A program made the translations under genes and the position numbers. Below are positions 9,413 to 63,186 of a stretch of 64,000 bases of DNA, piece by piece. This DNA comes from Liolophura sinensis (taxonomy: Eukaryota; Mollusca; Polyplacophora; Chitonida; Chitonidae): NCBI RefSeq assembly GCF_032854445.1, contig NC_088303.1, forward strand, positions 33,363,501 to 33,427,500, in the 5' to 3' direction. How positions within the stretch are numbered: position 1 is the first letter of the stretch; each line of letters begins with the position of its first letter. Under the pieces are notes generated by a model. The model did not search any database. It was not told the DNA's origin and was given only the letters and a program-made list of their open reading frames with translations.

Positions 9413-9420
9413 GACCATTA

Positions 9421-15211: not shown

Positions 15212-15422
15212 CTATTCTTCGGTATAAAAGTTGTAATGCTACAGTTAACTTTTCTGTTCTTTTTTGAAGGGTTGAACTCTAAAAAAATGTTCTTCAATTT
15301 AGTACTGCTATAGCAAATCTTTCTGCACTTTTGTTTGTAGTTTGACTTGGAAACGGTATTCTTCAATGTAGTATTTCTATTGTAAATCTTTCTGATATTT
15401 TGATGGTGGTCTGACTTCGAGG
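15212..15422 (-). repeat. Tandem array spanning the SLC35C1-like stop codon
   Basis: The segment 15357-15422 encodes the last residues and the stop. A clearly related copy lies immediately next to it at about 15289-15355, and a more diverged third at about 15212-15285. Shared blocks include 'ttcttcaat.tagta', 'aaatctttctg' and 'gtttgactt'. The CTA (TAG on the minus strand) is kept in the second copy at 15308-15310. Unit length is about 67-75 bp. Confidence 0.75.
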
Positions 15423-16408
15423 TCTAGCTTTTGTTTACATTTTTCAGATCGCATTTTCACCATGGCATAGCTGACAGTCCCGAATATTGTCAGAAAATTA
15501 CCTAGCCACCAGAGGAATGTTTTGGTCTGATTGAAGTAAAGAACGGCCATGACAGTTTGTGTGACAGACTTGGCGCTGATGCTTATATGATGGGTAGTAG
15601 GACTGGTGACTTGAATCTGTAAGGCACTCACCACACCTATTAACAAGCTTAAAATCCCGGAACATGTCAATACTAACCAAAACCATGGGTCGTACATTTT
15701 CTCAGATCTGAAAACAGTTCGGAATTGTCCGGTGCTTAATAAAAGGCTAAGCAGAATAAATACGCTGTTGAAGTTGTACGAAAATGTCAACCTAAGAGAG
15801 TCTTTGTTCATAATGTCTTCTGACTTTTTCATGAAAGTTCCACCTAATGCAATGATAAGACTTGCTGCCAAGCCATAGCAGATGCCTCTCAATGGGACAT
15901 GATCTCCAATGATACCCTCCTGACTTGCCCCCAAGTAGTACCCCATCACCACCACAGAGCAACACATGGCTATTTGAATATTAATAAACGTTCCGAGGAG
16001 AAAATGAGACAATATCACCACAAAAATCAGGGTGGAGGAGCGAGCAACTTGGTAAAACGCGACTCCAATGTGCTTGAGCATGAGACTGTTGAAGAGAAGT
16101 CCACCGACGAATGTCAACGACAATATGATGATGTTTCGATGCAGCAGTCTCGAGGAAATCAGCTCCGTTCTGCGACGCCATCCCATCCAGCGTGAGAACC
16201 ACGTCACTAAACAGATCATTGCTACCACAATGCAGCACTGGTAACAGGCAATGAAAAGAATCATGTCTACCTCAGATTTCTCTCCACCCACCAAATGCTT
16301 GTTGGCGAACACCATGGAGATGGAAACAACCCAATACAAGCTGATGATACCAGCGATTCGCAATGCTTTCCGCACATATTCCGAATCCCCTGTTGCAACT
16401 GGGCCCAT
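15377..16408 (-). CDS. SLC35C1: GDP-fucose transporter, SLC35C1 family
   Basis: An uninterrupted frame of 343 residues, near the family length (human about 364). It is a nucleotide-sugar transporter of the drug/metabolite superfamily with about ten hydrophobic segments. Family blocks: 'ISLYWVVSISMVFANKHL' near the N terminus, 'FYQVARSSTLIFVVILSHFL' in the middle (keeping the Arg equivalent to the one mutated in human LAD II), 'GYYLGASQEG', 'ALQIQVTSPTTHHIS' and 'AKSVTQTVMAVLYF', then 'TKTFLWW' near the C terminus. The expected role is import of GDP-fucose into the Golgi for fucosylation. ATG 16408 opens the frame; a splice acceptor ('tattttacag' on the minus strand) lies 23 bases upstream, so the 5' UTR is split while the coding part is one exon. 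The usual 'FNVLLSYLLLKQTTS' block is altered here, so a diverged paralogue is possible. Confidence 0.93.
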   Translation of the reverse strand: MGPVATGDSEYVRKALRIAGIISLYWVVSISMVFANKHLVGGEKSEVDMILFIACYQCCIVVAMICLVTWFSRWMGWRRRTELISSRLLHRNIIILSLTFVGGLLFNSLMLKHIGVAFYQVARSSTLIFVVILSHFLLGTFINIQIAMCCSVVVMGYYLGASQEGIIGDHVPLRGICYGLAASLIIALGGTFMKKSEDIMNKDSLRLTFSYNFNSVFILLSLLLSTGQFRTVFRSEKMYDPWFWLVLTCSGILSLLIGVVSALQIQVTSPTTHHISISAKSVTQTVMAVLYFNQTKTFLWWLGNFLTIFGTVSYAMVKMRSEKCKQKLDLEVRPPSKYQKDLQ

Positions 16409-16431
16409 CGTATGCTAAGTCAGTGTACAGT
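16409..16431 (-). other. 5' UTR piece joined to the SLC35C1-like coding exon
   Basis: On the minus strand 'tttttattttacag' precedes 'ACTGTACACTG', giving an acceptor at 16432-16433 and 23 untranslated bases before ATG 16408. The upstream non-coding exon was not located with certainty. Confidence 0.6.
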
Positions 16432-19770: not shown

Positions 19771-22646
19771 CTGTTATGATACCGGGGCTGGATGCGTTTG
19801 GCCAGTTTTAATGTGACCTAAACCCAGCCTAGAAGTTCTAAGCAGTGTTGTGTTGTTGTTGTTCTGTTGTGCGAGCCACTTGTGTGTAACTTTGCATTCC
19901 AAGTTTATTCAGATCTAGCCATTAATACCCAAAGCAAAACTGAAACGTACAACGCTCGGCGAGAAAATGGCACATCAGTTGATGTATTTTGACAAAAAGA
20001 AACATCCCTCTAGAAGTTTAGTTAGTACTACATGTATATTATCTCAGCTAGCCTAGGACATGCCGGCTATCATGATAAATAGGTTTTGTTTTAACGTAAG
20101 GCGATTATTTTTAAAAACGTACAGGTTGCTAATGGATAGGGTGAGGTGATAAAGTGAGGCCACCGAAACTGTGGCATGCATATTTGTGCAGATCTGTACT
20201 TTGACATGATACACAAGGTAAGTACTCTGGCACTTCCCCAAGAAAAGTAAATGTAAGGATTCATAGCTCTACTAGAGTATAGGCAAAGGTAGAAACATTC
20301 AAAGCAATGGTAAACCATACACCGTTTTACACCGTATCTGATACTAAAGTAAATGAATGTCTGCAGTCCAAAACAGGTGTCAGTTTGTACAATTTGTGCC
20401 ACTTGACATGTTTGAGTAGTCAAAATTGAGCAAAACATTCCAAAATTGACTTGGCGTTTTTTAGCAAATTGTACACTATTCAGAATATAATGTCATGGTA
20501 TGTGGTCACCTGTGTTTTGAGCAAGTAATTTTATTACAGTCTAGTCCAACATAGAGGGCAGGTCCGAAAAAATTAGACTGCATCGCTTCACTGGGAATTT
20601 GAGCATTGCTGGGGACCACATCATTTATAATGTAAATTCCAACATTTGAGCAGAATTACCAAAATAACAAAAAATGTATCACAATCATCACTGTTAGGTC
20701 AAATGAGTGGTTGTTCACTCATTTTTAGGAACTCAGAGGTGATGACCCAATATTGTGAAGATGACGATGATGCGAATATTTTAAAAGTTCTCATGATTTC
20801 AGAATCATAAATGATTGTTTTTTGTATGTATCCACTTCCATGTTGTGTTGCAATGTTTCAAAATGAAATCTAATACACCATTAAATCATTTTGGATGACC
20901 TTAATATTTGTTGAGCTCGGCACTCTGAAGAGCTTGAAATATCAAACAGTTTGACCTCTGCACTTGACTGTATTTTCTGTGATAACTTAGACTAAAAACT
21001 TTTGCAATTCACCATTAATAACCTCATCAGATGATGCTGGTTTTTTTCAGTGTTATTCTGAAACTAGATTCAAACAGAATTATGGCCAGAATTCATGGAT
21101 TTGAGCCTGAGAGTTTGTAGTACCATTTTTGGACAGTTCACTGTTGTCTGCAAGAATCTAACCTGGTTGTTGTCATATCATACACATTGAGAATTGCTGG
21201 ATTAAATGTTTTCTTTGAGAAGTACAGAAGGTTTCCAGTGCATGTTCCAGTGCAACAATTAACACTCTTCATGGCATATTTATGAGCTGACGTGTATGAA
21301 AACATTACTTAGAATTAAAAAAAGGAGCATCTCAGTACAAGCGAGATTAAAACAGTTTACAGTTACAGCCTTTTGATATATATAGCACACTATACATTGT
21401 ATATGTAGATGTGTACATAACAATAACATGTAAACCATAATGAAATCAATCCTACTAAACATTTAATATGTAAAGACTTATCATCCAACACAGTTGTACA
21501 AGATGAAAACAGAATATATACATATTCATAATTCACTGCATCACAGTCTTCTCAGCTTGATTGTTCTGAATTAAAGATATTTTTGTCTTTTAAAAATTAT
21601 ATAGACACTTTCATTTCAAAGTCCTGATATGGCCTTACTGTAGTGTAGATGTACAGCTGTAGTACTGCTGATGTATCTTAAAACCACAATCATTCCTTAG
21701 AAGAATGAAACATATATCACATTTTTAATATACTTGTTAGGCTAAACAATCTAAAATTTTGCCCATGACTATGTTGGACAATATTGTCTTGATTCTGATA
21801 GTTTTATTGAACTTAGAAAGGTTTGCTGGGGTTTCTTAGGAAGGTGGGATGATATCCTGGTAGAAAATATAAGTTGTAGCGTCAAAAGGAATAATTTATG
21901 ACATGTTTGCTCGTAAAAATGTAATATTTTATAGGGTGAAAGTTTGTCATGTGACGAGTTGGATATACTTTGTGAAACACTTACCAATTAAATACATCTG
22001 TGGCAAATATATACATAAGTTTGAGAATGTTTTATTATGTTTTGAATTTCCTTTAAAATTTTATTCAGCTGCTGCTGTTTTTTAAATTTAGCTACACGTT
22101 CATCTGTATAACAGATGTTTAAATACTCTGATGCCTCTGCACTATGTGCAGCTCTCTGCAACTAGGACATCATTGAAAATATGTTTGTAGGGGTTCTACT
22201 CTAATTTTCATTATAATTTGGATATATTTTTTTTCTATTCCTTTCTCTATGTGTTAACTTCTTAAAAACCTATCTTTTTCATTAGTCGGAATGAAAAAAT
22301 TAAAGAGAACAAATTCTTACCAACTGGCCCTATTACAGAGTCGGGTAATGCCCAACAAAAATTTTTTTTAGGGTGGCCTAGTTTAGGAATCATGGTACAT
22401 ATATAACAGTAATCACACACACGTAAGATTGGAAACCCAAATAAACCCATTAGTTTAATACTCGAAGTCCATATACACGTAGATGTATGTCTGCCGCACT
22501 TGTATACTTTGGTATGCTGGCATTTTAGCCTACCTGTATAAAGTCTAAGTGTAGCTCATGTCTTACCCAGATGATCAACATCAGTGTTCAATGTCAGATA
22601 ACTGGAGCAATGTTGAATACAATGAACCATCTGCCCATAAAATATA

Positions 22647-22862
22647 CCCTAATTCCTCAACCTTTTAGCGTATGAAAAAGTAACTTTCCATGCAATTTAT
22701 GCACATTTTTAATTCGTTCTTGGGGACATACTTCATTGTTTGGATAAGCCAATTTCAGGGCTTCACAAAAAGTATAGCTTTATCAGTCAACACAGAATAA
22801 TGCCTTTAGACTATGCCTGAATAAACACCTTGTAAACTTGTGAAACGGTTGAAGAATTCGTG
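22647..22862. mobile_element. MITE family A, copy 4 (reverse)
   Basis: Left end 'ccctaattcctcaaccttt' with 'gcgtatgaaaaag' and right end 'tgaaacggttgaagaattc'. The interior 'ttcagggcttcacaaaaagt' and 'aataaacaccttgtaaactt' is the family-A body in reverse orientation. One of the best-preserved copies. Confidence 0.82.
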
Positions 22863-26469: not shown

Positions 26470-26692
26470 ATACATGTATCGTTTGTTGGTACATGTATCG
26501 TTTATTGGTACTTGTATCGTTTATTGGTACGTGTTTCATTTATTGTTACATGTATCGTTTATTGGAAAGAGTATCATTTATTGATACATGTGTTGTTTAT
26601 TGGTATGTGTATCGTTTATTGGTACATGTATCGTTTATTAGTACATGTATCGTTTATTGGTACTTGTATCGTTTATTGGTATGTGTACGTTT
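26470..26692. repeat. 19-bp minisatellite, about 12 units
   Basis: The unit is close to 'tgtatcgtttattggtaca', tandem with point variants. Since 19 is not a multiple of three, each unit shifts frame and the protein pattern repeats every 19 residues. This explains the long open frames over it; they are not genes. Confidence 0.92.
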
Positions 26693-30430: not shown

Positions 30431-33400
30431 ATGGATACCAGGCACAAAGACATCTTGGTGACTCGCAGGCCAGAGTTGGTAGAAAATCTGAACATGAGAG
30501 ATGGTCTCTTCACCCAGCTGATCGCTCGCAAAGTTCTCAGTGGCCGAATGGTCCGGACCATACAGGTAGAGGATGAACTGATGATGGGTTTTTATTTTTA
30601 AATATAAGTATATGTGTGTATTTTTAACTCGCTAGGCATAGTATTCCTGGTCTGTCAGCTAATGGTAAATAAAGTCCCCAGCACTCAAATCTTTATTTAT
30701 TTATTTATTTATTTGATTGGTGTTTTACGCCGTACTCAAGAATATTTCACTTATACGACGGCGGCCAGTATTATGGTGGGCAGAGCCTGGGGGAAACCCA
30801 CGACCATCCGCAGGTTGTTTCAGACCTTCCCAAAAGCCAGCATGAGCTGGACTTGAACTCACAGCGACTGCATTGGTGGGCCTGAATCTTTAGCACTGTA
30901 TACATTTAACATTGTGTTAAACTGGAAAGAATTTTAAAAATATAACATGTCAAGCAAAGTATTTCTGTGTACCAGCTGGTTACAGACTGTAGGTTTCAGG
31001 CAGTCCGATTTGTTTTCATTTTATATTTATGTGGTTTTTGTATAATTTCAAATACTGTTGTGGTATCCAACAGCATGGAAAAACACCAGACCAGCAAGCG
31101 GAAGACCTGCTGAATATCCTTCCCACCAGGGGGCCGAAAGCGTTCGACTTATTCTGCGAGTCTTTGGAAGCTGACGATCAATCTGAGCTTGTGAGACTCT
31201 ATCTTCGTGGTGACGGGAATTTGGGAAAAGACGAAGATGACAGTTCATCCAGAGGAAGTACATCTCAAAAACTCGACAGATCCTCCCCAATTCTCATTGC
31301 CATACGTGAAGATGATCTCAAACGATACAATATTCAGTGTTATTCCAAATCAACACGGGAGAAAAAAGAGGAGGAATTGACTCATGGGAACCCTCCACCA
31401 TTTGAAGAAAATGAGACTAGAATGGTGTTAAAACATTACCTGTCAGAGCCCCCACCCCCATACCAGCTCAACTCAGAACAAACATTGCCCATCAAGTCGT
31501 GTACCTCTGTCGGATCTTCCTCCCACAATCCCTCTGATGTGAACAGAGCCGACAGCTTAGGTAAGTTAAATCAATTGAAATTACCTGATAGTTGATTTCG
31601 CACATTTATCTGTGACAGTTGGAAACTTCCCACCTGTGTCAGTTTCTCACCTGTGAGAGGAAGTTTCTACATCTGAAAGTTGACCTGGAACCTTCCTCAT
31701 CTTTGACAGTTGGGAACTCTACATCTGAAAGTTGACATGGAACCTTCCTCATCTTTGACAGTTGTAAATTTCCTACCTGTGACAGTTGACTAGGAGTCTT
31801 TCTTACGTTAGATGGTTTTAACTTCCCGCCTGTGACAGTTTTTTTATGAATCTTACTCATCTGTGACAATTGGAAACTTCCCACCTGTGACATTTGACAT
31901 TTGGAAACTTCCTACATGTGACAGTTGACTATGAATTATCCCTACCTTTGACAGTAAGGAACTTTCCACTTATAGGAAACTTCCTGGCCTACATACAAAT
32001 GAATCTTCCTAACAGTTAGTAATTAATAATTTTTTTTTTTTTTTTCAGTTTCGTTTAAAATTCTTCATTTTTATCATTTCATTTTCCATGCCATTCCTGA
32101 AATGGTTCATAGCATTTGTGTGTTAGTTAATTAAAGCAGCGGTTTCTGACTGGTTCATGCTAGTGGTTTCACACTTGATCAGGGGTGTGGTTTGTTACTT
32201 GATCCATTACTTGTATTTCCCCAGCTTCATTAGAGGTAATCACTAGTGTGGCTCAGCTCGTGATTAGACTTCATCAGAGTCATAGGTTTACCCGGTGGGT
32301 GCCTCTTTGTTTTTGAGATGCCCTATTCGGACAGAACTAACATGGGAGAAATAGGGAAAATAGGAGAAAATTTGAAATGAGATAGCCCGAATTCAAGTTC
32401 TGGCTGAAGCTATTATCAGGGTAATGGTTCTTCACCCATGCAGATTATACCCGCATCAACTGCATTTCCCCCCCCCCCTCCCCCCCCTTGATTGGAAGAG
32501 TACCCACTAACTTGATCACAGCAGAAGTGGTTCAGCAATACGCTGTTTTTTGAAATACATGAGTCGTGCCTTGATGAAATATTACAATAAATGTATGGTT
32601 AAGAAAACATAAAATACATGTAAACAGAGAGAATTCTATTCACTTTTCACTTCAGATACTATGAACAAACGACCTTCCACCTCCAGCTCTCACAGTAATG
32701 ACATGCCAGGTAAGTATTTAAGTCTCCAGGAAATTTGTAAAAAAATCTTAATCAGATGTCCTGAACTTCCCTGAATAAAAGTGTTTTGAGAGTATGCATC
32801 TAAAAATCTGAAAGTTCATTACCAAGAGTAAAAAAGAATATTACTCCAGTAGATCTGATCTTGTTGAAATTTGTGTTCATACATATTATGCTCAGTGTTC
32901 ACACATCTTGTTATCAGTGTGTTCACGCATCTTGTTATCAATGAGTTCACACATCTTGTTATCAATGTGTTCACACATCTTGTTATCGGTGTGCTCACGC
33001 ATCTTGTTATCAGTGTGCTCACGCATCTTGTTATCAGTGAGTTCACACATCTTGTTATCGCTGTGTGCACACATCTTGTTATCGGTGTGTGCACACGTCT
33101 TGTTATCGTTGTGCTCACATATCTTATCAACGAATTACTGTACAGTATCATGAGTGTGTTATTATGTCAGGCTATCTAATGAGTTCTACATTCTGTCTTC
33201 TCTTCTTCAGTAGCCAAGAAACATAAAGCCTGTAGCAGGGAAGCTGATCCCTGACTCGGAGGATGAAGGGATAGATTTGACAGACGGACCAGTCAATGTC
33301 AGAGTGGAGCGATGCGAAAGATACTTCTATCTTCAAAACTACAAAAGTGTAAGACATCCTCTGCTCATTACAAATGAAACAGTAAATGGACTGTTGATTT

Positions 33401-36400
33401 ATGGGAAATGTGCTGCAGTTTGAAGTATGCCGTGAAAAAAGTGTCTGCTTCAGGCATTTGAGGGCTGTCTCTTCTAACTTTTTGAACTAATCTTTTTCTA
33501 AGCTATGGACAAGAATTTCAAACTGTATTAAATCGAACACTTTTGAACTTTGTGGGTTTGTGTTGATTAAGCAAAGCAGTATTAACAAAAGAACTTTAAT
33601 TCTCCAACCTTTTCGTGTGTTTGCAAGGTGTTTATCCAAGCATATTTTGTGTGGGCTGATAAACTTATACCTCTTGTGAAGGCCTGAAATTGGGCAATCC
33701 AACCAATGTAGTTTTGTGTCTCCAAAATCAAGTTAAAAATGTGCATAAATTGCGCTGAAAGTTACTCTTTCATATGCGAAAAGGTATAGTATATAAAGGT
33801 ATAAGCTATAGTATAAGTGTTTCTAGTGTGCATGACAAATCCAACTTTTGTAAACAAAGATAAAAAAAACAGCACGTACACATACCTGTCTGTACATTAA
33901 AACATTGTAACCGTCAGCAATCAGGCACAATTTCAGTGTTGCATGAATGTGAAACGCCATTTACTGATTGCCTCTGGTTCTGCCCATGGATATTAATGCA
34001 AACTTAAAACTTGAAAATTTCATTTCATACTTCAAGCATAACAGTTGAAATAGGTGAAACGAGATCAGTCGGATAAGTAATAATTTGACTTCTGTTCTTC
34101 TCATTTACTATTAATGTCACATTGCTTTCATGTACATGTATCATGAATGAAGGAATTAATGAAACCTTTAATTGAAAAGGGTAGCTCTGTCAAATTGTGC
34201 AACTTGCTTTTCTCAGAGGCGCTCCTTTCAACAATACATGAACAAGTAGAAACAAGTGTACAATTCGATTTTTTAAACATGAAAACAGTCAAAAATACAT
34301 CACTATGTACATCGGCTGAAATCTAAAATAAATAGACGTGTTCAAATTTACTGGTTAAACTGATTTTTCAAATAGCGTGCCCTAAAAAGCGTAAGTGATG
34401 ATGCTGTTCTGTTTTATCACCAGGCATACCCCATGAACAGAATTCCCCGAGGGAACGCTATCATCCTCAATGTGAACGAGGTGGTTGGACGAGGCCCCAG
34501 GAAGGGGACGGACATTGACAGAGATAACATGAAGAACCTGCTCACCCAGCTGGACTTTGATGTGCAGGTGTACAATGACATTGATGGTCTGACAGCACGG
34601 GTGAGTACAGGCGCTCTCACACAATGGCCAGTGCGGCCATAAATAGAAGAGAATCCTTGACCAATAATAAAATATTAGTGATCAAAAAAAAAGGTAAAAA
34701 TTAAAAATAAAAATTAAGTTCAAAAAATTTTAGATGCAGTTTGAAGACGTATTTCAATATGACGTGGCTCATATGAAGTTATATTAAAGTTAATTATAAA
34801 GAAATCAAAAAATATCCTGCCCGAATCAAATATTATTTTTGTAATCTGCCACAACTGGCACAATGTCAGTGGTCAAACACTTTGTGGGTTAGGGCAGCCT
34901 TAGATAGGGATTATGTAAAATGACTTCATTTTCCAATTTAGCATTTGGGCCAGCTAATATTTTTCTTTTTATATTGCTTTGTGTTACATGCGGAGTTATG
35001 CTTTATGTCACTGTTAAAAGTAACACACACAATGTGTGGCTTAAAGCAGGTTTAAGAGTAGCTATTTACATGTAAGTGTAAAAAGCTTTGTTAAAATAAG
35101 AAATTGTAGAGAGACATTAGATAGTTACTGGGTGAGTGTTTTACACATTGTTACAAGTACATCCAGTCTTCAATCTTTTTACCTTTGTGAAAACAGAAGT
35201 TAAATGCATTCATGCCTATTCATGTATCGTATAATTTCATTTTAAGATTTAGAGTTGATGCTGTGGTTTGACAGCATGATTACTCTAAAGACTTTTGTGA
35301 TTGACACTGTGGAGTATTTTGCTTCACAGAAGTTTTTAGTTGTCAGTGAACAGTTTTGCTTTATTATCTCATTTGAAATAACCATGTGCTCCATGTATAA
35401 ATACCGTTTCACTCTCATTTCCTCTGTGCAATAAATCATGTTTTGGGATGTGCCAGTCATTTACGTACTTGTCTATTTATTTATTTCGTTATTTATTTTT
35501 TTTTTCTTTGCAGGAAATGGTGGAGAAACTGCGTGACTTTTCGCGAGAAGAGTCTCATTATGACTCCAACTGTTGCATCATAGTCTTGCTGAGTCACGGA
35601 GAGGAGGGCTATATCTTCGGTACAGATGGTCTGAAGATACCAATGTCGGGCATATTTGCCATGTTTGACAATGCTAATGCGCCAGGACTGGTGGGAAAGC
35701 CAAAAATATTTTTTGTCCAGGCTTGCAGAGGAGGTATGGTTTATTTGTTTACTTTTTTTTAATATCATTGCCTGTATGAAATGTGCTCACAGTCAGTTTA
35801 TTAAAAATGTTGCTGTCTGTCCTTCCATTTGTCATTCTCTTTGTCTTTCTGTCATCAATACATCTCTTTCAAATTTAGATCGATAGGTATTAAAGTCTGC
35901 CAACAGTAGTGCCTTGGTTAATGTGTTGAGACTTGTCACTGCTCTCTGTTATTCAATATGGCCGCAATCATCCGTCTTAAACTCCCATTTATCTGATTAT
36001 GACCTGTTTATGTTATGATGAAGTAATAAACCTCATTCACCTCAGCCTTGTTGTTGGTGATTAGCCCTAACGAATTTCTAGATGTTTCCTTTAGACATTC
36101 CCCTTGGTAGGGAACCTTTTAGCTTGTGTAGCTTTTATATGGTTGAGACTAAAAGCATGCACAGATCTATGAATAGGTTGTATGGGTAATTTCAGTGCGC
36201 TATTTTTGAACAAAAACATCTCTTAATAAAATTGGAAAATAATACATGAATGTTAAGCTTGGCCTTTGGACCGTGATTGTTCTAGGAGAATTTGGCAGGT
36301 AGACGTTTCATTTGTTCACAACAAAGATAAGAGATTCTAAAACAGTGAAGACAATACATGTTTTGTTAACACTGAATCAACGCCATACCATAAATCAGTT

Positions 36401-39400
36401 TCCCGACATAATGCATGAGCATATATACTGTTATTCTGAAAACCTTTTCACATGTTTGCAAGGCGTTTATTTAAGCGTATTCTGAAGGCAATATTGGGTG
36501 TAGCCTGATGAAATTATACTTTTTTGAGAAGCCGTAAAATTGGGTAATCCAACCAATGCCTTTTTTTCTTTTTTGGATATTTTTAATTACCAGTATAAAA
36601 TTATTATCTGCCAGTGGCAGCAAAAAAAAAAAAAACTACGGGACCGGATGATAAAAAATTTCGTACATGCCTGTACAGGAATGTAGTAAAAAGATTAAAG
36701 TTGAGAATCTTGTTTCAATGTGGGTTTAATCCCACATGATCAGGTGCCTCAGGACCTGTGACATCAACATCAGTCAATTGTAGGCAGTGCATCAGTGGCT
36801 TTGAACCAATCATTGCTACCTTATTTCCAAAAAAAAAACAAAATGTATGGACAACATTTTATTTTGATTCTTGATTTTATCTTGGTCTGCTTGCTTAGAA
36901 CCTCCATTGTCTTGTTAGGATTATGTTTCTGCTGTGTTCTTTGCTGCGACATTGGACCATAACGTAGAAACCATAGAAGGAGGTCATAAATGGGCTGGTC
37001 ATAAACGTATTGTGAGAAATCTTCGCATTGTGAAGGCTGTGATTATGCCAGCACGACCTCAGGCTATAACTGAAAAGGTTATTAAGCTGAGTTATTAATG
37101 TCAGTGTCAAATGTTTACTTCTCCGCAGGAGCGCTAGACAAAGGCGTGTCGTGTGACGAGACAGATGGTGGTACAGACATGACGGAGACTGTTGCTAGGA
37201 TACCATCTCAGTCTGATATGTTGATATGCTACCCTACACAAGAAGGTAAGAGTTGCCTCCCCTTTATAATGTTCTCCCCCCCCCCCCCCCCAAACAGTGT
37301 AGCATTTTACCTGTAATGGGTGTTGATATTCATTTACTTCATATCAAGCCCTATCACAGATGGCTTTGTTTACGAAAAGAAGTCAGAAATTAAGAAATAT
37401 AGATGCATGTTTATACTGTAATTCTTCATCCTTTTCGCATGTTTGCAGTTTTTAGCCTATTCTGAAGGCATTATTTTGTGTTGACTAGTAAAATTATACA
37501 GTTTGTGATGCTTTGCGACTGGCCAATCCAACCGATGTAGTCTTCAAATTCAGTATGTGCTCTGTGTGTTGATCTGTCATAGGTAAAAAGCTTGAGGAAT
37601 TAGGGTAGTTGAAATGAAAAGATGACATAATTTTCATCAAAGATCTACAGCATCAGGTTTGGATTGATATTGAAAAGCCTATGAAATTGGCAGCAACATA
37701 TGCCAGACAGGGCTCTTTTTTTTTTTTTTTTTTTCTTGTAATTTTTCCGAAATCCAAAGACGTTTGTGTAACTTCATCTCACGAGAATCCATGGGAATGT
37801 AAATTTAGATTCATGTAATATTCTTACACATCATTACTATTATCATTATTGTCTTAATAAAGTCACTTAGTGCTACTTTTTCTATTTTGATTCCGTGAAT
37901 TTTGGATTTAAGGGAATATTTTGAGAATCAGATTTCCAGACTCCAGTGGAAAAGGGATGCCTGTTAGAACGTTATATTCTTACTCTTCATAGATATGACT
38001 GGAGGGGCTGAGAGGGGAGGGGATTGATTTTCCGCTGAAGATTGTACCTTTATTGCTGGGTGTAAATGCCCCCTCTTCTACTTGACCATCTACTAGCGCC
38101 TTTGCCACTGTCTGTAGCCTGGGGCTCTAAACTTTGACATACTTAGATAAGCAGAGCATCACTGGATACTAGTTATTAGTAAGGAGAATAACTTTGACTG
38201 CCAGCTGACAGGCCGAAGGAAGTGTATGATCGAACACAGCTGACAGATTTAGCTCATAGATGTTTTACACCTTTAATTAAGTAGACCTTTATTTTCATTG
38301 TTATTTGCCAAAATCAATTTCATAGGTTCACTTTAGGGGAAATCCACGACAGCGTGTTCAAAGTCGACCCTAATTCTTCTAATTTTTAGGACATACATTA
38401 GTTGTGCTGAAAGCAAAGAATTACATTTCTTTGCCATTTTTTTGGAAAAGTAAAGATATAATTATGTTGTTCGTTAGATGGACTAACCATGTGAAAAAAA
38501 GAAACTAAACATTCCTGCTACATTTGCATGTATATTGACTAAAAGGAACAGACCAAGTGTTTCAAAAATTGGAAGAATTATGTACCCTAATTCTTCTTAA
38601 ATTTGGGACAGATATTAGTGGTGTTGAAAGTTGAATAGTACATTTCCTTTCTAGCCTTTTGGAAAAGTAAAGATTAGTAAAGACTTATTGCAGACTTATT
38701 TGGCCTCTGTTTCACTAAAGGGGAAATTCATACCCTATTTTCAGACTTATAACATAAGACTGTTTCACAAAATCATATCTGTGTACAGACTTATCATGTG
38801 CAAGCTGGTAAAAAAAAAAAACTGTGACTTAACATTTACTGCCTAAAAACATGCAATTAAAATGTCATCTTGTGGTCTTCTTAATAGGTTATTATGCTTG
38901 GAGGAATCGAGACAGAGGTAGCTGGTACATAGAGGGCATCGTCCAAATCTTCATGAAGTATGCCAAAAATGAAGACATCTGTGCCATGCTCAACAGGGTA
39001 AGTTCCAGAAGTGGTCATTATTTCATTAAAAAGTGCACCAATTCGGTGGCCTCATGGTTAGAGCATCTGCCTTAAAGTCGGGAGACGCAAGATTTTTTTG
39101 TATTCGGCATAATACATCAGTGGCAGCAGCACTTGGGCAGCATGGACTCGTCCTGCTACAAGAAGACACAGTAATTTTGCGCACACCTAATGACAACTCA
39201 TCATCATATGACTGAAAAATTGTCAAGTACGACCATAAACCCCAAGCATACATATATTAATTACAAAGTGTCAGTAACACACAAGTGTTTCCAGTTGTCT
39301 GTGTCCAGCAAGGCCATTTCCAAGGAAATATCACTGCATGTCATTAGGCCCCTGCCAGAATAGGATCCATCCCAAATCAGTTGGCCAAACTTTTAAACAA

Positions 39401-39955
39401 AACATTATATTGAATTGAACCTTAGTACTAGTACATCGCTACACCATGATGACATACATGCCAAGTTTGCATTTCTGCTATTTTGTCAGAAAAAAAAGTT
39501 GTGCCAAAACTATTGATATTCATTGTTAGTAAACATTTCAAGGTCAGCATTGTATTTTAATCGTCTTCAGGAATATTTTCAATAATCCGTACAGAGTTGA
39601 AATATTTATCAGCCAACAATAATTTCAGGATGAGATGCAGGATTTACAGCAATGAGTTTATCAGTGGATACAATGAATGCTATGACCATGTGTTTGCTAT
39701 GCTATAAAAAAGCTATATTTTAAATCTCCTCCTGTTAATTCAGTCTGAAGTACACGTACCTGTGAGAAATCTTAAAATTGAGACAATGCAATAAGTTAGT
39801 ACTTCCTTTTCTCCTGATAGGTCAACCACTTAGTGTCCAAGAAGTTGTCAAAAAGTTTACACTCAGAAATGGATCAGATGACGCAGATGTCGGAATACAA
39901 GAGCACCCTACGGAAACCCCATTTTTACTTCTTCCCTGGCATCGGTAGCCAGTGA
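30318..39955 (+). CDS. CASP2: Caspase-2-like initiator caspase (9 coding exons)
   Basis: The coding exons run 30431-30565, 31074-31560, 32656-32709, 33239(or 33236)-33348, 34424-34600, 35514-35733, 37129-37245, 38888-38997 and 39821-39955. They total 1545 bases, giving 514 residues. ATG 30431 has an in-frame stop just upstream (TGA 30422). The N-terminal CARD spans about residues 1-92 and includes 'LLNILPTRGPKAFDLFCESL', very like caspase-2. A linker rich in Ser, Pro and acidic residues follows. The p20 domain has Arg in 'RIPRGNAIIL', catalytic His in 'LLSHGEEG' (about 349) and catalytic Cys in 'QACRG' (about 392). The short interdomain linker has Asp-rich 'DETDGGTD', a likely processing region. 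The p10 domain has 'RGSWYIEGIVQIF' and ends 'FYFFPGIGSQ'. All catalytic residues are present, so an active initiator caspase is expected. Exon 4's start is uncertain. Confidence 0.93.
30431..30565 (+). CDS. CASP2: Caspase exon 1, first half of CARD
   Basis: 45 codons from ATG, reading 'MDTRHKDILVTRRPELVENL' onward and ending 'SGRMVRTIQ' at the donor 'gtagagg' in phase 0. It matches the first helices of caspase-2 type CARDs. Confidence 0.9.
30690..30880 (-). mobile_element. SINE family C, reverse, in caspase intron 1
   Basis: (TTTA)n, then 'gattggtgttttacgccgta', 'ctcaagaatatttcactta', 'acggcggccagtattatgg', 'gcagagcctgggggaaaccc' and 'gagctggacttgaactcaca'. The tRNA-like 5' head is mostly missing. 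Confidence 0.88.
31074..31560 (+). CDS. CASP2: Caspase exon 2, second half of CARD and linker
   Basis: Acceptor 'ggtatccaacag' and donor 'gtaagttaaa'; 162 codons plus one base. It encodes 'HGKTPDQQAEDLLNILPTRG' and the rest of the CARD. The linker includes poly-Ser/acidic stretches and a Pro-rich 'SEPPPPYQL'. The linker is longer than in vertebrate caspase-2. Confidence 0.92.
31605..32010. repeat. Degenerate minisatellite in caspase intron 2
   Basis: The words 'ctgtgacagttg' and 'ggaaacttcc(c/t)acc' recur about ten times with irregular spacing near 25-55 bp, directly after the exon 2 donor. Confidence 0.75.
32467..32488. repeat. Poly-C tract (interrupted)
   Basis: Two C-runs separated by one T inside caspase intron 2. 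Confidence 0.85.
32656..32709 (+). CDS. CASP2: Caspase exon 3, short linker exon
   Basis: 54 bases between 'tttcacttcag' and 'gtaagtattt', phase 1 to phase 1, encoding 'DTMNKRPSTSSSHSNDMP'. Ser-rich and basic; its length is a multiple of three, so it could be skipped without a frame change. Confidence 0.8.
32885..33130. repeat. 24-bp minisatellite in caspase intron 3
   Basis: About ten tandem units near 'gtgttcacacatcttgttat'+'cagt'. The 24-bp period keeps all frames open on both strands, which produces repetitive false frames of about 60-110 codons. Confidence 0.95.
33239..33348 (+). CDS. CASP2: Caspase exon 4, start of p20 region (5' end uncertain)
   Basis: Encodes 'KLIPDSEDEGIDLTDGPVNV' and 'RCERYFYLQNYKS', ending at donor 'gtaagacatc' in phase 0. 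The strongest acceptor ('tcttctcttcttcag', exon from 33211, or from 33214 after 'tag') does not match the phase 1 left by exon 3. It would give a stop in the linker. Acceptors at 33235 or 33238 ('gtag', 'gcag') match phase and keep the frame. Alternatively an unseen small exon of 3n+2 bases precedes it. Confidence 0.7.
33595..33788. mobile_element. MITE family A, copy 5, caspase intron 4
   Basis: Left 'taattctccaaccttttcg' and right 'catatgcgaaaaggtatag' with family interior 'gcaaggtgtttatccaagc', 'gtctccaaaatcaag' and 'gctgaaagttactctttca'. Confidence 0.82.
34424..34600 (+). CDS. CASP2: Caspase exon 5, p20 with substrate-binding Arg
   Basis: 59 codons, phase 0 at both ends, acceptor 'ttttatcaccag', donor 'gtgagtacag'. 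It reads 'AYPMNRIPRGNAIILNVNEV' and 'LLTQLDFDVQVYNDIDGLTA'. The Arg of 'PRG' corresponds to the S1-pocket Arg of caspases. Confidence 0.95.
35514..35733 (+). CDS. CASP2: Caspase exon 6, catalytic His and Cys
   Basis: Acceptor with long T-run then 'ctttgcag'; donor 'gtatgg'. It encodes 'CCIIVLLSHGEEGYIFGTDG' and 'GKPKIFFVQACRG', holding both members of the catalytic dyad. It leaves phase 1. Confidence 0.97.
36428..36563. mobile_element. MITE family A, copy 6 (right end missing)
   Basis: 'ctgttattctgaaaacctt', 'catgtttgcaaggcgtttat' and 'gtattctgaaggcaata' follow the family order. It stops in a T-rich run. Confidence 0.7.
37129..37245 (+). CDS. CASP2: Caspase exon 7, p20-p10 linker and p10 start
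   Basis: Acceptor 'acttctccgcag', donor 'gtaagagttg'. The reading includes 'ALDKGVSCDETDGGTDMTET' and 'ARIPSQSDMLICYPTQE'. The acidic DETD/GGTD part is a likely self-cleavage region (inference from family). Confidence 0.94.
37274..37290. repeat. Poly-C tract, just after caspase exon 7
   Basis: A run of about 16 C starting some 30 bases downstream of the donor at 37246. Confidence 0.9.
37417..37607. mobile_element. MITE family A, copy 7, caspase intron 7
   Basis: Left 'ctgtaattcttcatcctttt' and right 'agcttgaggaattagggtag', with family interior 'tctgaaggcattattttgtg' and a shortened centre. Confidence 0.8.
38368..38680. mobile_element. MITE family E, one full and one partial copy in tandem
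   Basis: Left end 'ccctaattcttctaattttt' and right end 'caaaaattggaagaattat' bound a unit of about 215 bp. Immediately after it a second copy starts 'ccctaattcttcttaaattt', with matching 'ttagtggtgttgaaagttga', and is cut short at about 38680. The interior is unlike families A and D. Confidence 0.72.
38888..38997 (+). CDS. CASP2: Caspase exon 8, p10
   Basis: Acceptor 'cttcttaatag', donor 'gtaagttcc'. It encodes 'YYAWRNRDRGSWYIEGIVQI' and ends 'ICAMLNR' in phase 0. The 'RGSWYI' block supplies the second substrate-binding site. Confidence 0.96.
39035..39255 (+). mobile_element. tRNA-derived SINE family F, caspase intron 8
   Basis: Head 'ggcctcatggttagagcatc', then 'agtcgggagacgcaaga'. The 3' end is 'tgactgaaaaattgtcaagt', 'acgaccataaaccccaagc'. 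It shares its tail with family G and its head with the 16.74-kb copy. Confidence 0.8.
39821..39955 (+). CDS. CASP2: Caspase exon 9, C terminus and stop
   Basis: Acceptor 'tttctcctgatag'. The 44 codons read 'VNHLVSKKLSKSLHSEMDQM' and end 'HFYFFPGIGSQ' before TGA 39953-39955. The 'MSEYKSTLRK' and 'FFPG' blocks are those of caspase-2 C termini. The final codons are the first unit of a tandem array. Confidence 0.95.
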   Translation, partial: VNHLVSKKLSKSLHSEMDQMTQMSEYKSTLRKPHFYFFPGIGSQ

Positions 39956-40475
39956 CTTCAATCATGTTTCTTCCGTGTAGAATGCAGTTCGGGTACAGAG
40001 TCAACCGTAGGAATACCTAGTTTTACTTCTTCCATGGTATCTGCGGCCAGTGACTTTGTGTGACTGATTAAAATCGTGTTTCTTCCATATGCAATGCAGT
40101 TCGGGTACAAAGTCATTCTAAGGAAGACCTGTCTTTACTTATTCCATGATATCTGCAAGTCAGTGACCTTGTGTGACTGATAAAAATCATGTCTCCTCCA
40201 TGTGGAGTGGATTTTGGGGATTTGGGTACAAAGTCAACATAAGCAAGTTCCATGGTGACATTTTCTTAAGTATGAACAGCAGGTGGCTTCTTTGTGAAAT
40301 AAACCTTTGTGACAGATAAAAACTCATGTGTTTCTCCACGTTGAGTGGTGTTGGGGTACGAGTCATTTCATGGAAGCCCCATTTTTACTTCTGCTTTTGT
40401 ATCGTCAGCCAGTGACTTCATTGTGACTGGTAAAAAACAAAATTGTACTTTCTGTGTGGAATATATGAAGGAATG
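39909..40475 (+). repeat. Tandem array spanning the caspase stop codon
   Basis: About five diverged units of 100-130 bp start near 39909, 40007, 40119, 40240 and 40371. Unit 1 contains the last codons and the stop. Units 2 and 5 repeat the same coding-derived words ('ttttacttcttcc.tggtatc', 'cagccagtgacttc'). All units share the downstream words 'tgtttcttcc' and 'gggtacaaagtcaa'. Confidence 0.85.
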
Positions 40476-43360
40476 ACATATGGCTCTGTGGTATCATCGT
40501 GACTGGTAAAACCATTTTTGTTTACCATTTGGAGAACAGCTTTATAAACTCTGCCAACAGTCCTTGTTTCTTCCAGGGGGTGGAGACATACATCTTGTTT
40601 TCGATCTGTTGTGAAGATACTTGTTTTCATTGTATGTGAATCTGAAGAATGTTGGGAAGTTTTATTACTTGAAGAATCTTTTTAGTAGACTAGTGAAAAA
40701 CTGTTTTATCTTTTCATTTTCATTTACATGGAATTGAGTAAGTTCCTCATGACCTTTTTATATGCCAAGAAAACAAAGATTTGCACATGTACATTGCTGA
40801 ATCATTCAAAACATTCCCTGTGAAAAGATGGTGCTAAAGTCAACACATTTGTCATCTACATTATGACATAGAAAGATGTTTTATACCTTGTTAAAAATTT
40901 GTACAATCATCGGTGAATATTTTTCATAAACTGTCTGAATACCAAACAGCTCACTAAATGAGTTCACATCCTCCATAAAAACAACATGGGAAAATTGTGC
41001 TATGTTTTATTGTATAGCTTACATGGTTAAACACTTATAAAAATTACTAAATTAATTATTCTCATCAAGACTGAGATAAATTGAGTCTTGTCATGCACTT
41101 ATTTTTCAAATTCAATGTGTAGATCTGAGATTTCATTCTTGCTATGATCTTGGAAATTATGAATACCATTGCTTATCAAGCTGTGCTAATGGGTTGTCCT
41201 AGAAGAATCTCATTTAGCAGTGGTCTTAACTGGGTACAGAATCATCACTGGTTGATTGCTATGTGTAAATTGACTCGATTTGCAACTTGTAAAATTGGTT
41301 GGCATTAGATAATCTTCCTGAAACTCTTCCACCTCAGTTGGAACTTTCAGAAGGCTTGGAAGAGCTTTTGGAAGGAGATTAGCTCAAATCAAGTGGACAG
41401 GATATATATTTTGGAAGAAAAATAGCTCAGATGGAGTGGATTGAAGAAAAGTGCAAAGCGAGTTGTTCTCTTGATTGGTCATCGTAGACTAAGCTGAAGT
41501 TTAGGTACTTTATTTGTTGTTCACTGATGTGTGACCAAGTTTTTCTGCCTTAACCCAGGATTCCCTATCTGCACTGTAGGCCAATCAGAGTTGATTCTGT
41601 AACAAGTACCAATACTTGATTGTGGGTATTGCCTTGGACCCTGTTTTTGTCTACTCACAAAGCTCACATCCAACAGGCAAAACATTGAAACATACAAATT
41701 TGTGGACTGTTAAACCCATGGCAGAGTGTGCAATATTTTACATTGCAATTCATAAATCGATTTGTTATGAGCAAGCAGTGGATCTGAGTTCTATATTTTT
41801 TGTATACATATACGTATGGCTTGAATCTATACATGCAAGTATAAATGTCTGATGGTTTCAAAGAAATAGAGGTACTATAGTACAACATGGGTACATATGC
41901 ACGCACGCCAATCTTATTTTGAATGCAAATTGACATGTACATTAATTTTAAGCTTTATTTGACTGTATACATTGAAGATTAAAATCTTCAAGCACTGTTA
42001 AAGGAGAAATAAATAGTAATTAGAACTACATGCCATCACTGCCAGTTTGTTTTGAGGATTATATTACTTTGTATTGTTTTATTATGGTCCAGTTATAAAT
42101 TTCCATTTTTTCCCTCATTTTAATGTTGAAATCTTTTGTTTTAATCCTAATAGTCACTAAGGAACAAATTGTTTAGTAATTTTATGTATATGCAGTAAGA
42201 TTTGTCCAATTTGTTTATAATTCTAGAGTTTTGTAATTCAGATATTTTTTTATTGTTGAATGCAATGATCTTTTATATATGTCCTGTACATTTTCTTCAG
42301 TTTTGTTTTCTTCTTTCTGTCTTCTTTTTTTGCTCCTATGGTGAGGATATATAACGCATTTATTCTTGCACCAAATTTTACATATGAAGAAAATACAGTA
42401 CTGGTATCACATGAGTTTTTACTGCTCTCAGTAATTGGTAGTTAAAACACAACCCTGTAGCCTGATTAGAACAAGGGGTTATGTGTACGGAAGATCCTGC
42501 CAGTTGCTACTAATATGATATTAATTGTGTTATAAAGACAAAACAGTTTTGAAAATATTTTACAAAGTTTCTCTCAGACTGTCTGCTCTTTAAAATGCTC
42601 TTTAGGGGAAACAATACGTCCTACACTGTGGAGCCAAATTGCATCTTTTGGCTCAATTGTGTAAGATTTGATTCAATATCTCGTGCTGTATTTTTGGCTA
42701 GTGTGTAAACTTCAATCTCTAGAAAACCAAAGTTAGTTTGCCTTGAAGTGTATGGTACATTTTGTTAAACGTGTACTTGTTCATTTGCTTTTCTAAATTC
42801 ATTTGCTTTTCTAAAATTTGTCAATTTTATGCTTACGTATTACTGGCAAGTTCAAGTTTTGAATATGTACCTTAAAATTCTTTTCCTTGAGAACATTACA
42901 ATCCTTGTAAATTTGACACAACCCCATCTAAAGCATTGAGCAGTCATAGTAACATGAAAATAGTTATTTGAAGGTTTATATAATGGTGAGACACTTTCAT
43001 TCTGAAGAACTGGAATGATAGTACGATTTTGCAACTTTTAGTTTTTAACGGTGGTTGCCAACTTCATTCAAGTTATAATTCCATGATTGAACAAATTTTT
43101 TCATCATACACAAACTTGTGTAATTTGATATTGCAGAAATATATGTTGTGTAGATTTTTTTTTATGTTGCTGACAGATGCCAGGTATGTTATTCGTTCAA
43201 CTCGACACCGTCTTGTGCAGATTAATCTTCAGCTGTTCAGATATGCCTTTGCAATGAAGCCTATGCCATAACTGTTTTAATTGGTCAGTCAGCCTTGCTA
43301 TGAATGTTGCCAGTACATACTTGTATTTTTTAATTATCTGTTCGTATGTACATCACCAGA
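39956..43360 (+). other. Probable caspase 3' UTR and downstream flank
   Basis: The tandem array gives way near 40.5 kb to AT-rich DNA without recognised repeats. AATAAA occurs at 40298-40303 (inside the array) and 42008-42013; either could be used. No coding frame is convincing. Confidence 0.45.
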
Positions 43361-43366
43361 TATGTA

Positions 43367-43610
43367 ATGGCCTTGTTCATACAATATAATACATGTATTA
43401 TAATTGTTTGTTCATATGCACATTGCATGACATACATGTTATGGCCTTGTCATACAATATAATACATGTATTATAATTGTTTGTTCATATGCACATTGCT
43501 TTACATACATGTAATGGCCTTGTCATACAATATAATACATGTATTATAATTGTTTGTTCATATGCACATTGCTTGTCATACATATAATGATCTTTTTCAT
43601 ACAATATAAT
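43367..43610. repeat. Tandem repeat, about 73-bp unit
   Basis: Three and a half units beginning 'aatggccttgttcatacaat', each with 'aatacatgtattataattg' and 'ttcatatgcacattgc'. Units are more than 90% alike by eye, so the expansion is recent. A diverged remnant continues to about 43.68 kb. Confidence 0.9.
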
Positions 43611-43857
43611 ACAGGTATTACATTGCTATTCATGTATTATAATTATCTGTTCATAGAATGTAATACATGTATTGCAGTATATGTATTTGTTTGCCCTTTT
43701 TTTCCCCAACCAACCAAAGATATTGACCTCATTATGTATATCCATCAACATTTGTCTATCTCAGATTTTCGGTGTGTAAAATTTCATGGGCTGGTATATC
43801 TCATGAACAGGGTCACAGTTTTTGCTCATGGAAATATAATTTATTTTCTCACTTTAA

Positions 43858-45610: not shown

Positions 45611-45899
45611 TCTGGGTGGTCTACTGTTTCGTCTCGAGCGTATGGTAGTTACGACAGGATTATGTTGTGGATTTGGGGCACAGTTCCTTGTGGATTCTAG
45701 AGATAGGTCTTCCACTTGTAAATGTGATTCTCTGGGCTGTGCTTTTGACGTGACAGAATACAACGTCTGTCATTCCATATTGATCCATCATCTAGCTGCT
45801 AGGCCTGTTTTCTTTGCGATCTGGCGAGGTTTACACAAATCTGTTTTCAACTTGTTACCTCGGTGTGGACGTTTTACACGAACCCAGTCACCAGATTTA

Positions 45900-47465
45900 A
45901 ATCGTGACTGTTTTGCACTTCGCTTTGCGTCGGTGTAACATTTAACCTTGTCTTGTTTCTTGGCAACATGCTTTGCGATTTGCTTTCGGAGGTTGCGTTG
46001 AGGATTGCAGAGAAATGTCCTACGATGTCGGATTCCGTGTCTGGACAGAAACGTTTCAAATTCATCGGAAGTGAATTGGGCACCGTTATCCGATTAACAA
46101 CATCAGGTAATCCCCAATGAGCGAAGAGGTCTTCCAAGATATGAAAAACTGCATCTGAAGTTATTCTGTTGGTCGTAGCAACTTCAGGCCATTTGGAATG
46201 GAGATCATGTACAACTAATACAGTACAACAATCTGAACTTCGCCGAAGATGTCTGTGGCAATCTCTTTCTAAGTTTGAGTTGGGCAATGGGCTGTACTGG
46301 AGGTTGAATGAGTTTTACCGATGTATCACTCAGTGCACATGGTTCACAGTTTCTCACAAAATTTTCAATGCTTATGTTAAAGGAAGGCCACCAGACGGTT
46401 TCGCGACATCTCTGTTTTATGCGAACTATGCCTGGAAGACTGTCAGGCATTACTGCTCTAGAACCACGGGCAATACACGAATCATTCCAAACATATGAGT
46501 TATATGCTCTCTGTTCTGTTGAAACATGATGAGACCATCCATTTAAAACGTAGGTTTAGATTTGTTTGAGAACTGGATCGATGTCTGAAGCTTACTTGAG
46601 ATCTTCCTGGGTGATAAGACCATCCAGATCAATTCCAATAACGTCAGCATCCTCTGTCGCCGACGTTGACACTGTTTCTTCGGAAGCGAGCTTACTGAGC
46701 ATGTCTGCTACTTCATTCTTGTTTCCACTGATATGTTCCACATCTATCAGCCCATCTGTTGATTCTCAAAGGTCTGCTCTCCGGCCGTAAGTGGGAAGAT
46801 CTTCTAGCAACCTGCGGATGGTCGTTGGTTTCCACCCACCATAATGCTGGCCGCCGTCGTATAAGTGAAATATTCTTGAGGACGGCGTAAAACACCAGTC
46901 AAATAAATAAATCAAAGGTCTGTGCCCTGGTCCAGATGTTGACAGTAATGCTTCGAGGTCTGTTCATGGTCCATGGAGATACATATGCCAGTGTTCATAT
47001 GCAAATATGCATACAAAAGCCTCGCGTTCACTATATTTCCGCTTTGTAGGCGAGAGAGTACGAGAACTAAAAGCCGCGTTCATGGTCATCCAAGATTTGC
47101 GACATACTCCTGCAGCGTATCCTGAGGTATCTAAAAAACATAGGTTGGAGCGTCAGGGTCAAAATGAGCGAGTACAAGCGGTGTGGCAATGCGCTGTTTC
47201 AGATTGGTAAACGCATTAGCGGGCTCCTGTGTCCATTTCCATGATTCAATTTTGAGGTAGACATTGGTAGAACCAAGGAATGATTGAAGTTTTGTGTGTT
47301 TGTAAGCTCTGGGAGACCCTGAATAGCTTTCGTATTTCATTCAAAGGGCACTACTCCTTTGGCTGAAATGTTGTAGCCGGCAGAGTTTTGTGAAAACTGG
47401 CACTTTTCGACGTTCATTGTCAGGTTGTTCTCCGAAATACGCTTCATGACTTCTTCCAATTATTT
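45900..47465 (-). pseudogene. Broken Ty3/gypsy-type pol remnant, antisense
   Basis: Read on the minus strand, the order is end of reverse transcriptase ('NLTMNVEKCQFSQNSAGYN' near 47.41 kb), then the connection to RNase H ('LKQRIATPLVLAHFDPDAP', 47.13-47.34 kb). The integrase zinc-binding region with 'RETVWWPSF' and 'NCEPCALS' follows (46.21-46.55 kb), then the integrase core with 'HDLHSKWPEVA' and 'DLFAHWGLPDVV' (45.9-46.29 kb). It is dead. The His pair expected before the Cys pair of the zinc finger is deleted, a frameshift interrupts the core just after 'GLPDVV', and a SINE splits it at 46.76-46.92 kb. Much of RNase H is missing. Confidence 0.85.
46757..46917 (+). mobile_element. SINE family C, 5'-truncated, inside gypsy remnant
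   Basis: 'ctccggccgtaagtgggaag', 'aacctgcggatggtcgttgg', 'taatgctggccgccgtcgta', 'aaatattcttgaggacggcg' and (AAAT)n. It lacks the tRNA-like head and interrupts the antisense pol remnant. Confidence 0.9.
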
Positions 47466-48730: not shown

Positions 48731-48992
48731 GGGGTCTCCTTGGCTCTGTAGGTTAAAGCGCTAGCGCAGCGTAATGACCCAGGAGTCTCTCACCAATGCG
48801 GTCGCTGTGAGATCAAGTCCAGCTCATGCTGGCTTCCTCTCCGGCCGTAAGTGGGAAGGTCTTGCAGCAACCTTCGGATGGTCGTGGGTTTCCCCCGGGC
48901 TCTGCCCGGTTTCCACCCACCATAATGCTGGCCGCCGTCGTATAAGTGAAATATTCTTGAGTACGGTAAAACACCAGTCAAATAAATAAATA
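48731..48992 (+). mobile_element. SINE family C, full length with target duplication
   Basis: The tRNA-like head 'ccttggctctgtaggttaaa' (A box) and 'ctgtgagatcaagtcc' (B box) opens it. Then come 'gctcatgctggcttcctctc', 'cggatggtcgtgggtttccc' and a short palindrome 'cccgggctctgcccgg'. The tail 'aaatattcttgagtacgg' runs into (AAAT)n. The flanks 'ctgttctcac' (48720-48729) and 'ctattctcac' (48993-49002) are a 10-bp target duplication with one mismatch. The tail resembles the Meta domain described for bivalve SINEs (from memory, unchecked). Confidence 0.92.
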
Positions 48993-50155: not shown

Positions 50156-50277
50156 ACGATAATAAAGAGAATATGACATGAATACAGGATAAATACAGTA
50201 CCCTACTGTGTACATTTATCTTCTCCCTGATTCAGACAGTTGTGGCTTTACAGATCAGGTCTTTGGTATTTTGTGTA

Positions 50278-50372
50278 ATTTATTTATTTGATTGGTGTTA
50301 TACGCCGCACTTAATTAAGCATATTCTACTAATATGACCGCGGCGGCATTATGGTGAGAGGAAACCGATATT
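50278..50372 (-). mobile_element. SINE family C tail, reverse
   Basis: 'tatttgattggtgttatacg', 'ccgcacttaattaagcatat' and 'accgcggcggcattatggtg': a diverged reversed tail. Confidence 0.75.
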
Positions 50373-50584: not shown

Positions 50585-50790
50585 GTAATGACCCAGGAGC
50601 TCTCACCAATGCGGTCGCTGTGAGTTCAAGTCCAGCTCATGCTGGCTTCCTCTCCGGCCGTACGTGGGAAGGTCTGCAAGCAACCTGCGGATGGTCGTGG
50701 GTTTCCTCCCACCATAATGCTGGCCGCCGTCGTATAAGTGATATATTCTTGAGTACAGCGTAAAACACCAATCGAATAAATAAATAAATC
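50585..50790 (+). mobile_element. SINE family C, nearly full length
   Basis: 'gtaatgacccaggagctctc', 'cgctgtgagttcaagtccag', 'cctctccggccgtacgtggg', 'cataatgctggccgccgtcg', 'tattcttgagtacagcgtaa' and (AAAT)n. Only the first part of the tRNA head is missing. Confidence 0.9.
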
Positions 50791-51600
50791 AAAACATCTA
50801 AGATTCCAAGACAGTAACTTGGTTGGTGGGGGTTAAACACAGCATGTGATCACATACATATATGCAACATATACTGTTGCACCCATTTTCAAGAGTGGCG
50901 GAAACCGGATTGTCCATCAGCGGCCACTTTCACAAAACTTCAGTCACCTTTCTCATCAATTCTTTCGTAAAAGACGTCCAGGTTATTGTGCCGTAAAATG
51001 ACGTCACTTATGAGAAGTTATGAAAAATTGATTCATAAAGTTTTATGCAAGTGACCCCAGGGTAACCCAATCTTAGGTAAGTTAATGAATCTATATCACG
51101 TTTTTTTGGTTAATACATGCACTTATCTTTCACAAAACATAGCTTTCAGTGGCCTCCAATTTTCAATGCCTACATTTTATTATTCTAATAATGTATTTCT
51201 GTGTCAACAGCTACCGTAACATAAACTCTGGAACATAAATTTAATGTGTTCTGTTTTATTTCATACTTAAAGGAGAAGAAAGCTTACATATCAAACAAAC
51301 ATCATCGAAAAGAGTATGCATTTCCTCGCAGGTGCATGCCATAAAAAAATTCTAATATGTACCCTAAGTTGCTAAATTATAAATAAAGTCAGCGCCACAA
51401 TCCGCTATGGGCGACTCCACTTTGCCTAAGAACTAGTCCTGAAGTCTTCTGTGGTGGACGAATTGCCGTCGGGAACCGCCGAGTTTACACGAACAAGCCG
51501 GCAACTTTAACGACTCTCATTGGCTGAGAGACTGAATCAGAAAACAATTAGCCTCCCTAACGGAGAACACTGGAAAGAAAAACTCATTAAGACTGGATAC
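50791..51600. other. Intergenic, nothing recognised
   Basis: Mixed-composition DNA between the last SINE and the probable 3' end of the G-beta transcript. No gene or repeat identified. Confidence 0.5.

Positions 51601-55342: not shown

Positions 55343-63186
<7,844 letters not shown>

Follow-up and report, generated by a model that had tools for sequence, protein, structure and literature searches.

The caspase gene and its surroundings

The stretch of DNA analyzed here (the window), 64 kb from the chiton Liolophura sinensis, contains a + strand gene at about 30.4–40 kb in which Pfam recognizes a CARD plus a caspase domain. CARD (PF00619) was matched at E 1.2e-13 when probable exon 1 and exon 2 were joined by hand, and Peptidase_C14 (PF00656) at E 2.6e-57 across residues 25–257 of the 268 encoded by five joined exons, with the match ending just upstream of HFYFFPG. 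These five exons (34376–39955) form a single open frame with AG/GT borders throughout, and their translation contains the caspase motifs SHG and QACRG. The phases of the exon 2 end (31560) and the exon at 34376 disagree, and the gene model hence probably lacks a small exon. Among the best 60 of 224 PDB matches, the top chain by E-value was JF1cpCasp2 (8vp4; E 4.4e-49), with caspase-3 and CED-3 chains ranking after it. The C-terminal end of the last exon is MTQMSEYKSTLRKPHFYFFPGIGSQ-TGA, and the 8vp4 alignment pairs MSEYKSTLRKPHFYFFPG with MSEYCSTLCR-HLYLFPG; of the three alignments viewed, only that with 8vp4 reached FPG, the two caspase-3 chains ending at residues 256 and 234. A CARD, a Peptidase_C14 domain, and an MSEY.STL...FPG C terminus are common to caspase-2 and the chiton gene. 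Judged by its domains and best PDB chain, the gene is an animal caspase-2-like (CARD caspase) gene, predicted here as an incomplete model.

About 50 bp into the intron past the exon 2 donor, diverged tandem repeats with TGACAGTTGGAAACTTCC-type words occupy 31611–31957. An exon origin of these repeats was rejected: the last 71 bp of exon 2 gave no match (319/500 shuffles), and a stretch across the exon border scored at chance (211/500), with the first 40 intron bases being weakly similar to the repeats (46/500). In the last caspase intron, a stretch at 39040–39092 resembles, by eye, a tRNA-derived repeat head (ggtggcctcatggttagagcatctgcc); ARAGORN found no tRNA in the 64-kb window.

The window also contains two dispersed repeat families. 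The first, present in both orientations with 79–97% identity in the listed pairs, was found at 14393–14538, 30696–30878, 46777–46916, 48771–48992, 50260–50366, 50585–50793, and 60643–60815; several of its copies are readable as protein letters, and the single copy scanned had no Pfam match. The second (78–86% identity in the listed pairs) was found at 4233–4441, 9419–9505, 10802–10958, 22645–22858, 33640–33785, and 36426–36556. Other coding traces include a retroelement remnant at 46208–46555 on the − strand (Integrase_H2C2 PF17921, E 7.5e-09), adjoined by a frame at 45877–46314 that had no Pfam match; a 345-codon, nucleotide-sugar-transporter-like open frame at 15380–16414 on the − strand (TPT PF03151, E 6.4e-17); and a frame at 3115–3417 on the + strand with an SH2 domain (PF00017, E 2e-09). 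A G protein beta subunit (WD40_Gbeta PF25391) is represented by exon pieces on the − strand at 60281–60544 (168.1 bits, cut-off 150) and 56135–56425 (141.6 bits, below the cut-off), and repeated stretches of 67–95 bp occur near 56447–56810.

Table 1. Exons of the caspase gene, units of the array at its stop codon, and further minisatellites in the window
Feature	Position	Strand	Basis
Probable exon 1, CARD N-terminal half, MDTRHKD...RTIQ then GTAGAG	30431–30565	+	ORF; assigned by eye
Exon 2, CARD C-terminal half and linker, donor TTAG/GTAAGT	31074–31560	+	Sequence; Pfam
Caspase exon, large subunit start	34376–34600	+	Borders, frame; Pfam Peptidase_C14
Caspase exon with SHGEEG and QACRG	35514–35733	+	Translation; Pfam Peptidase_C14
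Caspase exon, large subunit end and inter-subunit region	37129–37245	+	Frame; Pfam Peptidase_C14
Caspase exon, small subunit, GYYAWRNRDRGSWYIE	38888–38997	+	Frame; Pfam Peptidase_C14
Last coding exon, VNHLVS...MSEYKSTLRKPHFYFFPGIGSQ*, TGA 39953–39955	39821–39955	+	Acceptor, frame; alignment with caspase-2 chain 8vp4
U1, likely founder: about the last 20 codons including TGA, plus 34 bp after TGA	39891–39989	+	Pairwise alignments, left-edge tests
U2; in-frame TAG before TGA copy; ATTAAA at 40067	39990–40101	+	Alignments, translation
U3; TGA copy outside the caspase register	40102–40222	+	Alignments, translation
U4, most diverged; linked to array via U3 and U2; AATAAA at 40298	40223–40353	+	Alignments
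U5; 84% identity with U1 over 49 bp around TGA (U2: 78%)	40354–40470	+	Repeat search, alignments
Partial sixth unit, with TCATCGTGACTGGTAAAA at 40494–40511	40480–40526	+	Repeat family; lag-76 and lag-190 dot-plot matches
Minisatellite, period 55	13195–13317		Tandem Repeats Finder
Minisatellite, period 19	26471–26692		Tandem Repeats Finder
Minisatellite, period 24	32873–33125		Tandem Repeats Finder
Minisatellite, period 73	43362–43620		Tandem Repeats Finder

A diverged tandem array at the caspase stop codon

Five diverged tandem units of 99–131 bp, with borders set by eye at the GGGTAC word, span 39891–40470, and a partial sixth continues to about 40526. A preliminary description of this DNA had reported such an array at the stop codon of the caspase, starting at 39909; Tandem Repeats Finder, the dot-plot, and unit alignments all confirmed the array itself, and its start was moved to about 39888–39896 and the partial sixth unit added. 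Tandem Repeats Finder reported 39960–40201 with a period of 112, 2.2 copies, 81% matches, and a score of 319, and ungapped direct repeats at spacings of 98, 112, 113, 121, 362, 114, and 76 linked copies as far as 40511. When 39780–40600 was dot-plotted against itself (all lags 30–649), 329 30-bp windows had at least 20 matches; 200 dinucleotide shuffles averaged 1.4 such windows and never exceeded 15. Better alignment than shuffled sequence, the check named in the preliminary description, was also found when the local alignment score of each unit pair was compared with 1000 shuffles: 7 of 10 pairs exceeded every shuffle, with z from 6.9 to 38.5 (U1-U2 18.4, U1-U3 6.9, U1-U5 19.5, U2-U3 38.5, U2-U5 16.2, U3-U4 12.9, and U3-U5 13.5). 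The remaining three pairs all include U4, and their scores were reached by 1/1000 (U2-U4), 27/1000 (U4-U5), and 634/1000 (U1-U4) shuffles. Membership of U1, U2, U3, and U5 is therefore secure, and U4 belongs solely through U3 and U2. Head-to-tail units of tens to about 130 bp that align above chance, as seen here, are one feature of a 3'-UTR minisatellite; the array lies directly after the stop codon, in what is presumed to be the 3' UTR. At E 0.01, nothing else within the 64-kb window matched it.

Identity among all units was 58–79%, being 58–73% between U1 and the others, 79% between U2 and U3, and 58–65% for U4. Jukes–Cantor distances were 0.24–0.41 among U1, U2, U3, and U5, and 0.48–0.61 to U4. 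GGGTAC, AGTCA, and forms of TGTGACTGATAAAA are common to U2–U5 and absent from U1, and a partial copy of TGTGACTGATAAAA occurs at 40494–40511. The unit tree (IQ-TREE, HKY+G, 200 bootstraps) grouped U2+U3 at 74% and U2+U3+U4 at 71%. The shared words and a 14-bp segment suggest that U2–U5 form one clade, which is not proved by the private differences in 96 gap-free columns (U1 7, U2 5, U3 4, U4 13, and U5 6); alternatively, U1 may have lost the 14-bp TGTGACTGATAAAA segment.

Homology to the downstream units begins inside the last exon, at about 39888–39896. Leftward extension from a GGAA anchor, summed over four units, was reached by 0/300 shuffles; singly, it was reached by 6/300 for U2, 1/300 for U3, 6/300 for U4, and 86/300 for U5, the weak case. 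Left of the Tyr codon at 39896, the summed score was no longer significant (48/300 shuffles), and the breakpoint is therefore placed inside the exon; gapped alignments of U2, U3, and U5 extend back to 39875–39888, within this nonsignificant extension. Without the anchor, the 27-bp piece of exon around this edge matched no unit head above chance (169, 350, 440, and 715 of 1000 shuffles), and so the left edge of the founder is approximate. The founder appears to comprise roughly 20 C-terminal codons, the stop codon, and 34 bp directly past the stop, because exon 39821–39890 is unrepeated (0/4 unit tails above chance; 633, 986, 987, and 973 of 1000 shuffles) and the dot-plot, which started at 39780 and thus covered the acceptor, had no match starting before 39900. 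The same two results ruled out duplication of the whole terminal exon, and the suggestion that this exon is the first unit holds in the sense that the coding end is the likely founder.

Likely direction of copying and decay of the copies

The coding unit is likely to be the founder and the downstream units its copies, because conserved caspase sequence (8vp4) can be aligned with the former and the latter read like decayed versions of it. The claim that copies keep the word 'cagccagtgacttc' including the TGA applies exactly only to U5; U1 has 'tagccagtgacttc', U2 and U3 keep CAGTGAC, and U4 lacks the TGA there. A TGA in the caspase register is found only in U1, U2, and U5. Read in this register, U2 gives RVNRRNT*FYFFHGICGQ*, with an internal TAG; U3 (KVILRKTCLYLFHDICKSVTLC) and U4 (KVNISKFHGDIFLSMNSRWLLC) read through the stop position; and U5 gives RVISWKPHFYFCFCIVSQ*, in which FCFC replaces FFPG and FPG is lost. 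An open frame together with FPG is found in none of U2–U5, and the spare in-frame ends proposed in the preliminary description were accordingly not found among these units. Mismatches to U1 at codon positions 1, 2, and 3 were 6/21, 6/21, and 8/22 in U2; 6/21, 6/21, and 9/22 in U3; 11/21, 8/21, and 11/22 in U4; and 5/20, 8/21, and 6/21 in U5. Differences of U2–U5 are not concentrated at third positions, and this even spread would be as expected of untranslated DNA, with 20–22 sites per position giving little power. The uncalibrated Jukes–Cantor distances of 0.24–0.61 suggest that the array is probably old, and it would then be expected to be common to related species.

Very probably, this is an old, small minisatellite-like array in the presumed 3' UTR, produced by a duplication that spanned the stop codon and by subsequent expansion and decay of untranslated copies. 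The founding event would have been a tandem duplication of about 100–115 bp across the stop codon. Such a duplication would be harmless: the first, upstream copy retains both frame and stop, later copies all lie past the stop, and the protein would be unaltered. The freed copies may then have multiplied via slippage or unequal crossing over and would have decayed without coding constraint, a decay that is seen in these five units. Nothing points to recent conversion between array and coding end, because the features of U2–U5 are missing in U1 and U1 is less similar to the other units than U2 is to U3.

Possible function and wider meaning

Certain features of the array would suit a regulatory module of the 3' UTR, with the units serving as alternative poly(A) signals or as binding sites through which caspase mRNA is tuned. 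The ATTAAA of U2 and AATAAA of U4 are the only such hexamers from the stop codon to 41978 and would predict 3' ends within the array, and the presence of TGTGACTGATAAAA forms in all four downstream units and in the partial copy, not in U1, could be a hint of a selected element. However, two hexamers, compared with 0.47 expected (P 0.088, 2000 first-order simulations), are not clearly above chance; no unit folded better than shuffles (0/5; z 0.13, −0.58, 0.27, 1.15, and 0.01), a short CAGT...ACTG hairpin being predicted for U3 and U5; no Rfam family reached its gathering score within the 64-kb window; and U4 has drifted to the lowest identities in the array. In a search of 39800–40600 for RNA elements, the sole match at E up to 1 was a bacterial sRNA model (19.9 bits, cut-off 50), which was taken as chance. 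We consider such a module unlikely, and the earlier proposal that the array supplies UTR elements was not borne out by the hexamer, folding, and Rfam results; the array is probably without a dedicated function, and the copies may at most lengthen the UTR and possibly supply candidate poly(A) signals. A more elaborate version, in which copies of the coding end form a working 3'-UTR module with poly(A) sites and a repeated element, unit number tunes the amount of an apoptotic caspase, and the array occasionally donates a new C terminus, is more doubtful still.

Insertion of a dispersed element at the gene end, so that this element and not the gene itself would be the source of the similarity, appears highly improbable: dispersed repeats abound in the window, but the array had no other match in the window, which was the only sequence searched, and conserved caspase coding sequence can be aligned with its first unit. 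Least credible of all is replacement of the caspase C terminus by unequal exchange with, or conversion from, the array, as had also been suggested; the 49 bp over which U1 and U5 still agree make exchange conceivable, but no unit of U2–U5 combines an open register with FPG, U1 falls below the U2-U3 identity in every comparison, and the U2–U5 features are absent from it.

The preferred reading, an array founded by duplication across the stop codon, makes it an ordinary byproduct of tandem duplication, that is, a general consequence and not a caspase device. Minisatellites and variable number tandem repeats (VNTRs) are known in 3' UTRs, e.g., in the human dopamine transporter gene, with its 40-bp repeat. 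Like these, the chiton array consists of short tandem units in an untranslated gene end; unlike them, its founder is identifiable as coding sequence with a stop codon, and its units are far more diverged. For human genes located in segmental duplications, internal tandem repeats have been described that fall in introns as well as in coding sequence and UTRs, Table 2 giving 13 exonic cases in UTRs and coding units of 63–228 bp (PMC2812944). Those repeats lie within genes, as the chiton array presumably does; in the parts of that report consulted, no stop-spanning unit was noticed, and the term "stop codon" is absent from its main text. Neither a stop-spanning array in a caspase nor an array next to a caspase-2 stop codon was found among the titles and abstract starts listed in searches of open-access literature, which is weak evidence of absence. 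Searches for relatives gave 22 pattern hits in bacterial and archaeal contigs and 1 in viral contigs, none of them confirmed, and are uninformative on animal orthologues.

By our own count of Tandem Repeats Finder results, the 64 kb contain ten tandem-repeat loci with a period of at least 19 bp, the caspase array included; two neighboring arrays at 31.7–31.9 kb were taken as one, and about half of the loci have just two copies. Were arrays placed at random, on the order of one stop codon per hundred would lie within a founding unit, according to a hand estimate from this one window. The chiton caspase offers a clear case in which a tandem duplication that includes the stop codon turns coding sequence into 3' flank with the protein unaltered. 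Should such events be as frequent as the local array density implies, UTRs would commonly grow in a neutral manner through repeats derived from coding sequence, and coding-like matches past stop codons would warrant caution.
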